The notes under the pieces: model-generated
The model's input: the letters and a program-made list of their open reading frames with translations, nothing else
The model's database searches: none
Told to the model about the DNA's origin: nothing
Program-made: the position numbers and the translations under genes
Origin: a virus
Strand: one strand, 5' to 3'
IMG/VR virus record: IMGVR_UViG_3300009443_000037
Coordinates: 1 to 22,185 of that record
DNA: 22,185 bases
Part shown: positions 4,692 to 13,340 of the stretch, piece after piece
How the letters are laid out: every line of letters starts with the position of its first letter
Position numbering within the stretch: position 1 is the first letter of the stretch

Positions 4692-5183
4692 ATGGCATAT
4701 ACGGATATAATATCACTAAACGACGCTAAAACCTATTTAAGGGTAGACGATACTTTAACAGAGGACGACCAATTTATAACTAGAACTATAAACGCTTCAT
4801 TTAGTTGGATCGAGAAGAGAACAAATCAAATAGTTTCAGCAAGAGAAAAAGAATATGTTTTAATTAATGGCTACACTAGAATATATGACAGCCCAATTAA
4901 CACAGACTTATCTACTTTAACTGATTACGAATTTACAAATAAGGGTTTGTATTATACGGTATGCGCCAACAGTTTAGACGTGGAAAATGAATTTACTTTA
5001 AATATTGGGGAGAGTTTCGCTGATAATGTAGATTTTGAACTTATCAACGTGGCTTATGAAATAATTGAGTACTATTATAACCAAGCTAAAAAGAAACAAG
5101 AGGTTAAAGGCATGACTGTTTCTGATTACCTTAGTGAAATGTCAAAAGAGTATATAAACATTAATAGACGCTTTATAATATGA
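4692..5183 (+). CDS. Head-tail connector protein (HK97 gp6-like)
   Basis: A 163-residue protein whose N-terminus (ISLNDAKTYLRVDDTLTEDD, then FITRTINASFSWIEKRT) is the typical start of the gp6-like DNA-packaging/connector family: a helix that begins LxxAKxYLRVD, an acidic turn and a second helix. These proteins form a ring under the portal. The C-terminal helix (INVAYEIIEYYYNQAKKK) also fits. It lies in the standard position after the capsid gene and overlaps the head-closure gene by 4 bases. It starts 12 bases after the terminator T run, so its transcript must come from read-through or an unseen promoter. Confidence 0.78.
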   Translation: MAYTDIISLNDAKTYLRVDDTLTEDDQFITRTINASFSWIEKRTNQIVSAREKEYVLINGYTRIYDSPINTDLSTLTDYEFTNKGLYYTVCANSLDVENEFTLNIGESFADNVDFELINVAYEIIEYYYNQAKKKQEVKGMTVSDYLSEMSKEYININRRFII

Positions 5184-5653
5184 GAGCTAGACAACTTAAC
5201 AGAAAAATAGAGATATGGCAAGCTAGAAGGGTTAAAGATGGTTCTGGTGGGTCTACAACCTACAATGAACTAATAACTTCGTCTTGGGCAGCCGTTAGAA
5301 CACACAAAGACACCCGTAGAGATACTGAGGTAGGTGTTAGTGATTATTCTGAAAAGTTGGATATTACGATGCGTTATAGAAACGATATACAATATAATTC
5401 TGTTAATCAGTTCTTAATGTATAGAGGGGTAAAATATACTTTTACTATGAGTCCAATGAATATGGATTTTAACGAGTCTTTTATTGTGCTAACAGCATCA
5501 AGAGAAAAAACTAAATCGGTTGAGGTATTAGAGCCTATAAATCCAGACGCTAACACTATATTTATTAATTACAAAAATAGAGTTATAGGGGATGGCGGTA
5601 CGTTTGAGGCTGATGATTGCGTGTTAACGTACATAGAAAACAATATAGCATGA
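5180..5653 (+). CDS. Head-closure / head-tail joining protein with C-terminal DGGTFEA module
   Basis: Residues about 1-112 match the phage head-tail joining family (HK97 gp7, SPP1 gp16-like): MRARQLNRKIEIWQ, then a WAAVRT strand, KLDITMRYRNDI and YRGVKYTF. Such proteins close the connector below gp6. The family is usually about 100-115 residues; here there are about 45 extra residues. They comprise a Pro/Asp linker (VLEPINPDAN) and a 26-residue C-terminal module (residues 131-156) containing RVIGDGGTFEADDCV and YIENNI. Almost the same module ends the protein at 12122-12628. The gene overlaps its neighbours on both sides by 4 bases. The core assignment is fairly sure; the module's function is unknown. 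Confidence 0.75.
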   Translation: MRARQLNRKIEIWQARRVKDGSGGSTTYNELITSSWAAVRTHKDTRRDTEVGVSDYSEKLDITMRYRNDIQYNSVNQFLMYRGVKYTFTMSPMNMDFNESFIVLTASREKTKSVEVLEPINPDANTIFINYKNRVIGDGGTFEADDCVLTYIENNIA

Positions 5654-6087
5654 AACTAAACGCAAATGTTGTAGGTGTTAAGGCTTTAGAAAAGAAGTTT
5701 AAAAAGTTTGGTATTGAGGGACAAAAACAATTTGAGGATATAACAAAGATTCAAGCTTTAGAGATTCAAGCAGACGCTAAAAGGCAAGCTCCCGTAGATT
5801 TAGGTAAGTTAAGACAAGGAATAGTCACAGAAGAAGTAAATAAAACAACTTACATAATTGCAGCTTTAGAGAAGTATTCGGCTTTTATGGAGTTTGGTAC
5901 AGGTATGCTAACATCGATACCTAAGGGTTGGGAAGAGATAGCTATATTATTCAAGGGTAAAGGAGTGAGACAAGTAAACCTACCAGCTCAACCGTTTTTA
6001 TATCCTGCATTTATGAAGGGTAGCGATCAATATATAAAAGACTTAAACACAGCGTTGAAACGTTTAACAGATAAATTTAATAAGTAA
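5650..6087 (+). CDS. HK97 gp10-like tail/neck component
   Basis: A 145-residue protein with the HK97 gp10 pattern: N-terminal VVGVKALEKKFKKFG, a long helix with IQALEIQADAKRQAP, then VDLGKLRQGI and YSAFMEFGTG, and a C-terminal QPFLYPAFMKG. The family lies between head closure and tail terminator genes and is thought to act at the head-tail junction. I place the start at ATG 5650, which overlaps the previous stop (ATGA). The frame stays open upstream to a TTG at 5617, but that would run 37 bases into the previous gene and add eleven residues not typical of the family. Confidence 0.75.
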   Translation: MKLNANVVGVKALEKKFKKFGIEGQKQFEDITKIQALEIQADAKRQAPVDLGKLRQGIVTEEVNKTTYIIAALEKYSAFMEFGTGMLTSIPKGWEEIAILFKGKGVRQVNLPAQPFLYPAFMKGSDQYIKDLNTALKRLTDKFNK

Positions 6088-6521
6088 TGGATAAGAATTT
6101 ACCTAATAAATGGGTTAGGAAAGCTGTTTACGATGCTATAGATGGGATTGTAGTAGATGGTTACGCTATAGAGTGTTTTGACACTTATGTATCGGGTGCT
6201 AATCAACCTGACCACTATACAATACTAAGCACACAAACAAGCTCAGTAGATAAGAATAATAAGTGCGAATGGTTTTGGGATAGCTCAATTACAATAGAGG
6301 CGGTTACTTATTATCCAAGACCAGGAAACCCAGGAAGTAAACTGCTTGCAAACAATATTATTGATGAGATTAGGTTTCAAACTAATGACTTGGTGTTAGA
6401 TGCAGCGAGTGATTTAGAGATATTTGTACAAACGCAAGACTTCCCTAACGGGCTAACTATTTCTACGGATCACGAAAACATTTTTAGAGAGTTTATCACA
6501 ATAAATTTTAGAATTAAATAG
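6087..6521 (+). CDS. Putative tail terminator / tail completion protein
   Basis: A 144-residue protein starting at an ATG that shares its A with the previous TAA stop. The N-terminal helix (KWVRKAVYDAIDGI), a central strand set (HYTILSTQTSS) and the C-terminal ENIFREFITINFRI resemble the general build of tail-terminator proteins (gpU / DUF3168-like), which cap the tail tube and attach it to the head. I do not recognise a decisive motif; the call rests mainly on size, secondary-structure feel and its position directly before the tail tube gene. It could be another minor tail protein. Confidence 0.5.
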   Translation: MDKNLPNKWVRKAVYDAIDGIVVDGYAIECFDTYVSGANQPDHYTILSTQTSSVDKNNKCEWFWDSSITIEAVTYYPRPGNPGSKLLANNIIDEIRFQTNDLVLDAASDLEIFVQTQDFPNGLTISTDHENIFREFITINFRIK

Positions 6522-6602: not shown

Positions 6603-7046
6603 ATGTCTTTCATTAAAGGAGATGCTATTATTTTGTACATATGGGATAATGTTTCAGCCTATAAGCCTGTTGCGTGCCTTACGTCAAATAGTTTAGCACA
6701 AACAAGAAACATTATTGAATCACAAACAAAGTGCAATCCTGGAGTTGTCATTAAGGATGCAGGTTCTTTAACTTATGAGATTACATTTGAGGGTAACTAC
6801 ATTGACACAACGTCAGCAGGAAGTACCGATACGGACAAGGTATCACATGACGCTTTAAAGATTCTTTTAGAAACAGGAGCGGCTGAGACTTGGAAAATGG
6901 ATACGGGATTAGCAGATACTACTGCTTATTACGGGACGGGTATTTTCTCTGACTTAACTTTAGATGCAGCAGCAGGAGATGAACTAGCTACTTTTAGCGG
7001 TACGTTATCAGGAAGCGGAGCAATCACAACTACAGACCCTAACTAA
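6603..7046 (+). CDS. Major tail tube protein
   Basis: A 147-residue protein with the build of the TP901-1-type major tail protein. It starts with a strand (IILYIWDN), then ACLTSNSLAQTRNIIESQTK, which matches the family's typical S-L-x-x-T-x-x-x-I-E-x-x-T-K block. ITFEGNYI follows, and the end has GDELATFSGTLSGSGAI. These proteins stack as hexamers to form the tail tube. It has its own short leader with a promoter-like box and lies just before the assembly chaperones, as expected. A diverged paralogue is encoded at 12122-12628. Confidence 0.8.
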   Translation: MSFIKGDAIILYIWDNVSAYKPVACLTSNSLAQTRNIIESQTKCNPGVVIKDAGSLTYEITFEGNYIDTTSAGSTDTDKVSHDALKILLETGAAETWKMDTGLADTTAYYGTGIFSDLTLDAAAGDELATFSGTLSGSGAITTTDPN

Positions 7047-9855: not shown

Positions 9856-12072
9856 ATGGCAAACAGTTTTTATACAATACAACTAACAAGCAATAATCTA
9901 GCAGGTAACTTTTTAAAGGTTCAAGTAGATCCTATAGGTAATACAGATAAATGGAGTACTACTACTTTTGTGAATGGTGCTACGTCTAATTACTATCAAT
10001 GTGAGATAGGTACAGATATTGAGCAAACTATTATAAACTTAAAAGACCAATTAGATTATTATTACACAGGTGCTGGATATACTAACCAACCATACAACAC
10101 TACTATAATAGCGACAGACACTTTAAAAGTAGAACTAATAGAACCTTATCTTGATTTTGAGGTTTTTTTGTTTAGTGGACTAGAAGACAACGCTATATTA
10201 GCAATAGAAAATGTTCCTAACATAAAATACTATATAGAATATAATGATAGTGTAAACATTTTACATAGATTTGAGTTATATGACTCTAATTATTTTGAAT
10301 CTCCTTCAGAGGTTCAAGGCTACGTTACTATGGATTACGGGCAAGTAGACGAAAACCTAGAGGCTATTAGAGGGCAAGGATTAAGAGTAAACTTAGAGGC
10401 TGATGCATCTTTAACTTTCGAAGAATTATTTGAGGAAAACGAAAAAACTTTTAAATGTATTTATTACAGAAATAACGTTATTTTATTTCAAGGGTGGCTA
10501 AACCCCGAAGGATTTTTTGAAGATTACGTAAATGACAAATGGATTGTGTCTTTTGATTGTATTGATGGACTTGGTTATCTTAAAAACTTAGCTTTTGTAA
10601 ATGATGACGGAACTAATATAACAGGTGTAAAATCACAATTAGAAATACTTTCTTTAGCGTTACGCAGAACAGGGATCGAAGTAAATATAAACGTAGATAT
10701 TGATGTGTTTTATACAGGATTAGCAGATACAAATTCTATTTTAGAAAACGTAAAAGCAAATACAAGGCGATACATAAAAGACGATGAGGTTACTGTAATG
10801 AATTGTGAAGAAGTTATTAGGGATATATTAGAGCCTTACGGGGCAGTTTTAACGTCTTACAATGGACGTTGGGCAATCTATAAACCAAATCAATTAGTAA
10901 GCAATCAAACGGCTACTTTCTTTAGATACGACTATTTAGGGGTTGCGTTATCTCCAACGACTATAACTTACGATTTTGATTTTACAATAGGTAGCCAAGT
11001 AGACGGGTACGACCCTCATTACTGTAACGGAAACCAACAATTTACAAATCAGCCTAGTTTTGGGGCTTATAGGATTAGTTATAAATATGGTGTTTTACGC
11101 TCTTTAATAGATAACAACAGTCTTTTAAGTAATGGAACTGGATATGATGACTTTGTAATAACAGACCTTTTAGAGATAGTGATTAAACCTGCTGGAGAAT
11201 ATGGATTTGGGTTAAATGTTTTAGGGCCTGGATTTAAGAACTCAGTTATAAACACACTTAACTACATAGTACCAAGTGGGTCTAGTTTTAAATTAAGCCT
11301 TGCTTATTCTTTTAGTAATGTATCTAGTTCTGATTTAAATAGAAATAAATTTGTAGTAAGAGTAGACGACGATAATACTTCTAATTACTACACTTTAAAC
11401 ACAAACGGCTCATGGAAGTTAAACGGTAGTTTTTCTACTATAAAAACTGATTATTCAGAGGGTGATACACTAAGTAGTTATGATTTAGATGTTAATAACG
11501 TGCCCGTTAAAGGCACTATGCAAATTAGGTTTTACAATCCAGAGGACAATCCTTCAACGGTAAATAGTGGTATTTGTGATTTCACAAACATATCCATAAC
11601 TAGTTTAGATGTTGGAGACGAAGAAGGCGAGACATGGACTTTTGAAAGAACAAACAATCCGTCATCAAGAATAGAAAAAACCAGAGAGGTTTTTACTGGA
11701 GATTCAGAGTTTAATACATACGAGGGTACTTTATACAAATCAGACGGAATAACACCCACAGAAACATGGTATCGAAAAGGAATAACGGAAGCCGTGCCAG
11801 TTCTCGAATTAATGGGTTCGGAAGCCATGCGAATGAACGCAAACACAATGAGAATATTTAATGGTGATGTTTTTGGTTATTTTAATTATTTGAGTGTTAT
11901 TACTATTGATGGAAGGACTGGTAAGTTTGGAGTTACTAAATATAGCTACGACACAAAGAGTAATATTATATCTGCTGAGTTTAAGCAAATGTTTGGCGAT
12001 GAGCTAACGGATTTAGACGTAGAGAAACGGTTAGACTATGGTAATGTAGTAGAGCCAACTATTAGAGGATAA
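9856..12072 (+). CDS. Tail-tip / baseplate hub-like protein
   Basis: A 738-residue beta-rich protein directly after the tape measure gene (one base between), where distal-tail and hub proteins are encoded. Residues about 213-247 hold GWLNPEGFFEDYVND, KWIVSFDCIDGLG and YLKNLAF, a block I associate with the large tail protein of Bacteroidetes phages and prophages. Residues about 310-345 (EEVIRDILEPYGAVLTSYNG, RWAIY) also look conserved. The central part (about 430-590) has lectin-like or jelly-roll strands, and the C-terminus (TIDGRTGKFGVTKYSYDTKS) ends in the kind of module seen in tail tips. It probably combines distal-tail and hub roles. Enzymatic activity is not evident. Confidence 0.65.
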   Translation: MANSFYTIQLTSNNLAGNFLKVQVDPIGNTDKWSTTTFVNGATSNYYQCEIGTDIEQTIINLKDQLDYYYTGAGYTNQPYNTTIIATDTLKVELIEPYLDFEVFLFSGLEDNAILAIENVPNIKYYIEYNDSVNILHRFELYDSNYFESPSEVQGYVTMDYGQVDENLEAIRGQGLRVNLEADASLTFEELFEENEKTFKCIYYRNNVILFQGWLNPEGFFEDYVNDKWIVSFDCIDGLGYLKNLAFVNDDGTNITGVKSQLEILSLALRRTGIEVNINVDIDVFYTGLADTNSILENVKANTRRYIKDDEVTVMNCEEVIRDILEPYGAVLTSYNGRWAIYKPNQLVSNQTATFFRYDYLGVALSPTTITYDFDFTIGSQVDGYDPHYCNGNQQFTNQPSFGAYRISYKYGVLRSLIDNNSLLSNGTGYDDFVITDLLEIVIKPAGEYGFGLNVLGPGFKNSVINTLNYIVPSGSSFKLSLAYSFSNVSSSDLNRNKFVVRVDDDNTSNYYTLNTNGSWKLNGSFSTIKTDYSEGDTLSSYDLDVNNVPVKGTMQIRFYNPEDNPSTVNSGICDFTNISITSLDVGDEEGETWTFERTNNPSSRIEKTREVFTGDSEFNTYEGTLYKSDGITPTETWYRKGITEAVPVLELMGSEAMRMNANTMRIFNGDVFGYFNYLSVITIDGRTGKFGVTKYSYDTKSNIISAEFKQMFGDELTDLDVEKRLDYGNVVEPTIRG

Positions 12073-12121: not shown

Positions 12122-12628
12122 ATGATAAACGGAACATTAAAGATATTATATATAAAACAATATGGCGAGTATTTGCCTATCGGTTGTTTAACGGATAATA
12201 GTTTTTCAGAAAGTGCCGAAATGTTAGACACAACTGTAAGAACAAATACAAACGGATGGACTAGCTCTATACCTGTTGGTCAATCTTACAATATTGATTT
12301 TAGCGGATTGGTAACTAACGATATTTCAAGCGACTCAATTATAACGTTTCAAGCGTTAAGGGACATAAAAAGACAAAGACAACTATTAGAATGGAGAGTT
12401 TCAGACGGTAATGGTAATGATGATTTTGGATCAGCATATATAAACAGCTTAGGGGAAAGCTCTACAATAGATGAGTTTGTTTCTTTTAATGGTAGTTTAG
12501 TAGGACAAGGAGAGCCAACAAATACTTTTGACGAGTTATTTTATGGCTATAAAGACAGGGTTTTAGCTGATGGGGGTACTTTTGAAGCTGAACGATGTGT
12601 AAAAGAATATATAGAAAAAATAATATAA
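12122..12628 (+). CDS. Second tail-tube-like protein with C-terminal DGGTFEA module
   Basis: A 168-residue protein that appears to be a diverged paralogue of the tail tube protein at 6603-7046. Both open with a short strand and ILYI, then a Y-x-P-x-x-CLT-x-NS block (here LPIGCLTDNSFSESAEML), a central F-x-G strand, an AL helix with a Trp, and an F-x-G-x-L-x-G-x-G end (VSFNGSLVGQG). After an EPTN linker, residues 143-168 repeat the C-terminal module of the head-closure protein (YKDRVLADGGTFEA, CVKEYIE), 17 of 26 residues identical. Lying after the tail-tip gene, it may form a distal ring or fibre adaptor; this is inference. It is two bases upstream of the next gene. Confidence 0.6.
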   Translation: MINGTLKILYIKQYGEYLPIGCLTDNSFSESAEMLDTTVRTNTNGWTSSIPVGQSYNIDFSGLVTNDISSDSIITFQALRDIKRQRQLLEWRVSDGNGNDDFGSAYINSLGESSTIDEFVSFNGSLVGQGEPTNTFDELFYGYKDRVLADGGTFEAERCVKEYIEKII

Positions 12629-12629
12629 C

Positions 12630-13340
12630 ATGAGTACAGTATTTGCATTTATACCGCAGTCTTATAATACAAGCAAAGCATTTATAATAGTTCCTAGCTC
12701 TGTTGGGTTTATTAATTTTAGTAGACCAGCACCAGCAGACAGAACAGACCCAAACGGAGACACTGAGTCTATGGCAACAAACGTTCCTAGAATTGATTAT
12801 TCAGGGGAGGGTTGCCCTGTTTTGCTTTTAGATAATTCTTTAACAGAGAGATGTTACCAAGCGTACCAACTAGCTATAAATCCTAATAAAATGGTTTGGG
12901 AGCTAGAATTAGCTGCTGCAAGTAACACAACAGGAACAGAAAGAGTTGTAGCTATGACAGACCTAACAAATAGCATTGTATCTATAGGTTACACTTCGAC
13001 TGATAATCAAATATCTACTAAGTTTATAAATAATAGTACTACAATAGCTGATATCACATTTGACCACTCAGACAATACTATACTAAGAGATATAAAAGTA
13101 GTCAAAAACGGAACAGATATCTTAGTTAAGATTGATAATGTTTATGTTGGTGGTGTATTTGATGCTACTAACTTACCTACAATTGAAGAAATGAGCTACT
13201 CAGTTGCCAACACTAGAGATTGGATGGACGGTAAAACAAGAGATAACACAGTTTTTGACGATATAACAAAATATGATAGTACTGATACATCATGGGGTCA
13301 AGTAGTACAAAATATTAGTAACTTATTTACAGAGAGATAA
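12630..13340 (+). CDS. Fibre/receptor-binding-type protein with lectin-like domain
   Basis: A 236-residue protein. Residues about 28-68 contain the appendage-protein signature F-S-R-x-x-x-A-x-R-x-x-x-x-G-x-x-E followed by ATNVPRIDYSGEGCPVLLLD, seen in many phage fibre proteins just before a carbohydrate-binding domain. Residues about 85-200 form a run of beta strands (MVWELELAAAS, VSIGYTSTDNQ, ITFDHSDN, VKIDNVYVGG) like a concanavalin A/LamG-type sandwich. It overlaps the next gene by one base (TAATG), which encodes a second protein of the same general type. A role in host surface binding is likely; the sugar target cannot be told. Confidence 0.6.
   Translation: MSTVFAFIPQSYNTSKAFIIVPSSVGFINFSRPAPADRTDPNGDTESMATNVPRIDYSGEGCPVLLLDNSLTERCYQAYQLAINPNKMVWELELAAASNTTGTERVVAMTDLTNSIVSIGYTSTDNQISTKFINNSTTIADITFDHSDNTILRDIKVVKNGTDILVKIDNVYVGGVFDATNLPTIEEMSYSVANTRDWMDGKTRDNTVFDDITKYDSTDTSWGQVVQNISNLFTER

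Follow-up and report, generated by a model that had tools for sequence, protein, structure and literature searches.

Two virion proteins with a common C-terminal sequence

The window studied here, a stretch of 22,185 nucleotides that makes up positions 1 to 22,185 of the IMG/VR virus record IMGVR_UViG_3300009443_000037, raises the question of why two virion proteins with different cores should end in the same short sequence. Protein A (5180–5653, + strand) is a head-closure protein (Hc1, Phage_HCP) in which PF05521 covers residues 1–106 only (43.9 bits, Pfam cutoff 25), and protein B (12122–12628, + strand) is a second tail-tube-like protein in which PF06199 (Phage_tail_2) covers residues 2–133 only (38 bits, Pfam cutoff 23.8). 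The PHROGs assignments are concordant, with A as head closure Hc1 (phrog_25) and B as a major tail protein. The shared sequence, hereafter the module, lies outside the Pfam cores of both. The first tail-tube protein of the window (6603–7046, + strand; PF06199, 24.0 bits; phrog_1407) is homologous to the core of B (phmmer, 1.3e-7) and does not carry the module. No third copy was found in the window when all six frames were searched, and the window gave no match in Rfam or tRNA scans.

The original prediction, which was made from the letters of the window, described a tag of 26 residues. The gapless alignment of residues 131–156 of A with residues 143–168 of B was recovered, with 17 of 26 residues and 53 of 78 bases identical, although the module is actually longer, and extends over approximately residues 122–157 of A (5543–5650, + strand; 49–50 bits with the module profile) and 134–168 of B (12521–12625, + strand; 44–48 bits). 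The "EPxN linker" reported ahead of the tag is partly core, because GEPT is conserved in the B relative of locus L126, which has no tag. With a full-length local score of 104 for A against B and a maximum of 55 in 2000 shuffles, a chance origin is ruled out by the shuffles together with the cellular control given below. Two other statements of the prediction agree with our data: the tag is no recent copy (68% DNA identity), and usual head-closure proteins lack it, as the syntenic relatives in L126, L127 and L345 end at the core. The modules of A and B are each other's best match among 112 copies, so that a common origin inside this phage lineage is likely from the sequences.

A portable module, predicted as a helical hairpin

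The module has the consensus [FY]xxRVxaDGGTFEaxxCLxxxLxxL, with approximately 30 residues, of which G19 and E22 are invariant. AlphaFold2, run on an alignment of 68 copies, gives a helical hairpin in which helices 3–16 and 24–34 flank the loop DGGTFEA (mean pLDDT 95.8), and the module is predicted to fold autonomously as a stable hairpin. A cysteine-based link had been considered for the tag and finds no support, since the conserved cysteine is replaced by leucine in many copies of the distal-tail family F (see below), as would suit a residue with a role in packing. An assembly checkpoint, which had also been considered, is neither favoured nor disfavoured by the data. With the module masked out, the 112 carrier proteins fall into 38 clusters, which bears out the idea of a portable module on unrelated cores and is at odds with a normal part of one family. 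The positions among these carriers include C-termini, sites near N-termini, internal sites, tandem arrangements and short ORFs, and some small adaptors carry tandem copies.

A degenerate DNA pattern for the ADGGTFE run returned at least 120 stretches in IMG/VR, and approximately 95 among the 120 listed encode the module; the same pattern in a cellular genome collection gave none among the 117 stretches listed. The module profile, built from 68 copies, matches 29 of 30 viral records (most of them originally fetched through the motif) and none of 397 Flavobacteriaceae genomes, and gives one weak match, containing a stop, in 395 Bacteroidota genomes. The cultured carriers found are the Nonlabens phages P12024S and L. 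Beyond these two, single-peptide tblastn against cultured phages gave apparent chance matches only, a single-peptide search of plasmids gave none, and no cultured phage was retrieved through family F alone. Flavobacterium phage tooticki, the closest cultured relative by capsid, has no recognisable homologue of A or B. The phage group is referred to here as "Flavobacteriia" type from the two cultured Nonlabens phages and the capsid similarity of the window to Flavobacterium phages.

No Pfam match was found at the module in ten carriers, and no sequence match in the PDB. Foldseek with the hairpin gave no significant match, the hairpin being too small for a fold search to exclude a relation. The profiles of PHROGs 31097 and 28256 (function unknown) include the module, but these are whole-protein families, and the module is not described there as a portable unit. 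Literature searches, both for the motif and for docking modules of hairpin type, returned no description in open-licence full texts. The module family is undescribed and widespread.

At four-fold sites of identical residues, third-base agreement is 36.2% between phages and 36% within phages, where 33.8% is expected, and the module DNA shows no palindrome excess. These saturated silent sites disfavour a recent copy or mobile DNA; to judge from the sequences, the module is old and conserved as protein, with selection on the protein. Copies from the same phage are not generally nearest each other (mean percentile 0.53, p 0.24), and the weak excess of same-phage similarity that appeared in a cruder count came partly from a duplicated contig end.

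The module at the root of the tail fibre

The original prediction had missed a tie to tail fibres. Module copies in short ORFs and at C-termini lie directly 5' of a LamG-type tail-fibre gene, and in the window a divergent member of this fibre family with the motif MATNVPRIDY (12630–13340, + strand; fibre profile 22.9 bits; E 1.5e-9 with alignment A6) starts at 12630, 2 bases from the end of B at 12628. As the first loci had been found through the module, fibre genes were refetched by the fibre N-terminus alone, giving 80 genes, 79 of them with upstream sequence and some on contigs shared with the first scan. A clear module (15 bits or more) is located directly upstream in 64 of the 79, and ends 2–11 bases before the fibre start in 62; L387 and L420 have tandem pairs, in which the better-scoring copy ends approximately 110 bases before the fibre and the second copy is adjacent. 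The remaining 15 have a degraded or divergent copy upstream by eye, one apparently frameshifted. L016 and L356 have the module as part of the fibre protein itself, joined to its N-terminus. This is the location of a receptor-binding-protein anchor or adaptor, at the fibre root or on the product of the fibre-adjacent gene.

The relatives of B keep the core, and their C-terminal tag, which varies with the downstream fibre, is one of three: the hairpin, DGNNFVFSDGNNFIF or a GDPNVIITT tail. Three fibre types follow them: one is the LamG-type fibre, one a tailspike that ends in an S74-like chaperone and one a collar-like protein, the last two recognised by eye. In L126, L127 and L345, the relatives that show the head-closure region as well as the fibre region, head closure is without the hairpin and the LamG-type fibre is absent. 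The DGNNFVFSDGNNFIF and GDPNVIITT tags take the slot of the hairpin on the B relatives of L126 (9995–10486) and L342–L347.

Several other features were observed around these genes. L125, a relative of the window with 85–89% DNA identity, has an extra 46-residue ORF (6000–6152), placed after the B gene and before the fibre, that carries a hairpin of its own. The window gene at 9856–12072 has an N-terminal extension of approximately 120 residues; its homologues in L125 and L126 are without it and start at MALKYxxEYxDTVN. In small adaptors, the hairpin is preceded by NxIxWG-type repeats (MANNINWGQGANNDIYWGQG; L112 10728–10961, L054 12834–13073, L017 and other short ORFs), and adaptors of 123–143 residues are built of GSWLQALA-type repeats up to the hairpin (L021 3670–4086, L083 6416–6805, L104 1–369). 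An extra ORF, homing-endonuclease-like by eye, stands between the module ORF and the fibre in L071 (near 805–1657) and L102 (7300–8247). A few bases 5' of the adaptor start codon, L110 (upstream of 11112) and L119 (upstream of 6346) have TAACTTTG, which we take to resemble the Bacteroidota –7 promoter element TAnnTTTG.

Copies on distal-tail and portal-adjacent proteins

Module copies are also found on two families encoded by neighbouring genes of the distal tail, F and C. In family F, for which 66 loci were fetched by its own N-terminal half, the module is at residues ~190–222 or ~84–112 or, in G823 and G825, in a third loop; two members, each 360 residues long, are without it. The structural model of F places the two hairpin helices between strands of an N-terminal Ig-like part, with low-confidence hinges, and apart from the tube domain. 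The C-terminal domain resembles tail-tube and baseplate-tube proteins with Z values up to 8.8; as these are middling, "Dit-like" is kept as a cautious label for F. In family C, one or two modules occupy a loop that is short in gp45 of P12024S. An additional copy can be borne by VY, which is encoded beside the portal in P12024S.

Of 83 loci in which the F and C genes stand side by side, 61 have the module on F only and 18 on C only, while 4 have it on neither and 0 on both; clustering of the loci at 70% identity leaves 19 clusters, 0 of them with the module on both. The exclusivity is partly phylogenetic, and these counts are uncorrected for phylogeny. Where the relative of F has 508 residues, it and the neighbouring C are reciprocal, in that the module is in F and absent from C, or the reverse. 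Among 23 long contigs chosen only by their fibre, in which several carriers were assigned by length and family resemblance, all 23 have a fibre-side copy (weak in G007 and G822); F or C carries a further one in 20 (weak in G810), and both do so in 0. Those without a copy on F or C are G819 and G822, with no virion-side copy, and G821, with one on VY only. In ten records chosen through F, a fibre is present and the profile search finds the F copy only, with no clear fibre-side copy; two of these have divergent copies 5' of the fibre, and the others have tandem fibres or another adaptor. Tandem fibre-like genes are seen in G831, G835, G837 and G024, so that the gene upstream of the fibre is another fibre.

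A probable relocatable docking hairpin

The reading that we prefer, with a probability of roughly 55%, is that the module is a relocatable fibre-docking hairpin of Flavobacteriia-type tailed phages. The fibre-side copy would be either the N-terminus of the fibre or the C-terminal end of the product of the gene just 5' of it, the carrier in the latter case being B in this phage and a small adaptor in most relatives. The virion-side copy would in many phages be a loop or terminus of the distal-tail proteins F or C, the portal-adjacent VY or, here, head closure; it would have relocated among proteins and sites in evolution, and yet have been retained on one only of F and C. The hairpins would physically dock the fibre, by hairpin–hairpin pairing or otherwise, and we infer that the fibre of this phage may contact the neck, where A would provide the virion-side copy, a location observed only in this lineage. 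A docking site had been among the roles first suggested for the tag and is still the best reading, with physical contact as its conjectural part; the accompanying idea of a shared third partner appears less likely than A and B being the two sides of one linkage. Docking is favoured by the adjacency and fusion of the module to the fibre, by the copies on F or C in most fibre-chosen contigs and their exclusivity, by the way in which the tags of the B relatives and of head closure go with the fibre type, by the predicted stability of the hairpin and its place in F apart from the tube domain, and by the selection on the protein. Against it, copies of the same phage are not generally alike, as those of a co-evolving interface might be, the ten records chosen through F have a fibre without a clear fibre-side copy, and part of the F/C exclusivity is phylogenetic. 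In phage receptor-binding proteins, the N-terminal anchor domains and the T4gp10-like branching domains (PMC6872550) would work in a comparable way, as conserved structural elements near the fibre root and apart from the variable specificity part. No sequence relation of the module to either kind of domain was found. We know of no reports of such anchor domains recurring on several virion proteins or relocating between them.

A more specific proposal, which we put forward only tentatively, is a plug and socket, in which two hairpins of the same kind, one on the fibre or adaptor and one on the virion, would pair as a small helix bundle. The socket copy would hop between virion proteins, with three loops of F, the first loop of C, VY and, in this phage, head closure as its sites, and a phage would normally have a single baseplate socket.

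It is unlikely, though more probable than the other rivals of docking, that the module is a promiscuous display domain binding the host surface or the environment, as proposed for accessory domains on many siphophage virions. Ig-like domains are present on the C-terminus of lambda gpV, T5 pb6 and SPP1 gp17.1* (PMC8718954; see also Fraser et al. 2006 on Ig-like phage domains, as cited in PMC10385173), and 936 lactococcal phages have carbohydrate-binding modules (CBMs) on neck, major tail and evolved Dit proteins (PMC6669499). The module occupies the same kinds of sites, with a tail-tube C-terminus, the neck and a Dit-like protein: it shares with the CBMs that one kind of accessory module recurs across neck, tail tube and Dit, and with the Ig-like domains that it is a portable addition to the tail tube and to further virion proteins, apart from the core fold. 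However, the Ig-like domains (including FN3) are beta-sandwiches of approximately 90 residues, for which contact with the cell surface or stabilisation of the tube has been proposed, whereas the module is a predicted 35-residue helical hairpin (pLDDT 95.8) that goes with the fibre gene and is carried by only one of two neighbouring proteins. The CBMs bind host saccharides, of which there is no sign for the module, abutting or fused to the fibre as it is. Nothing in a display role would require the module to stand beside the fibre gene in practically all cases, to be carried by either F or C and not by both, or to track the fibre type, and a hairpin of ~30 residues is in our judgement small for a glycan-binding site.

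Still less probable, in our view, is that the module serves folding or oligomerisation, such as trimerisation of the fibre at its root, and does not itself bridge fibre and virion. The fusion or adjacency to the fibre N-terminus and the tandem copies in some adaptors would be in accordance with such a role, but it would account neither for a further copy on F, C, VY or head closure nor for the F/C exclusivity.

Rickettsia palindromic elements, which are short in-frame insertions with a conserved peptide in unrelated genes (PMC10969869), resemble the module in these respects; they are mobile DNA of approximately 150 bases in metabolic genes, with copies similar as DNA and palindromic, whereas only the protein is conserved in the module and its carriers are virion genes. 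That the module is a selfish micro-element of this type, tolerated in virion genes, is very improbable: ~100-base in-frame insertions at several sites in several unrelated genes would fit, but the module DNA is saturated at silent third positions and lacks a palindromic structure, residues G19 and E22 do not vary, and the positions of the module are ordered rather than scattered.

Implications for fibre attachment

To our knowledge, annotation is lacking for most structural genes of Bacteroidota phages, and little is known of the way in which the fibres of these phages are mounted. A tag of ~30 residues that marks the fibre-side and the virion-side attachment proteins would make fibre attachment readable from sequence in many uncultured phages, and the rule of one carrier between two neighbouring distal-tail proteins is directly testable. 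If the plug-and-socket proposal is true, the fibres of this phage would be anchored at the neck. The hairpin itself would be a small, transferable docking part.
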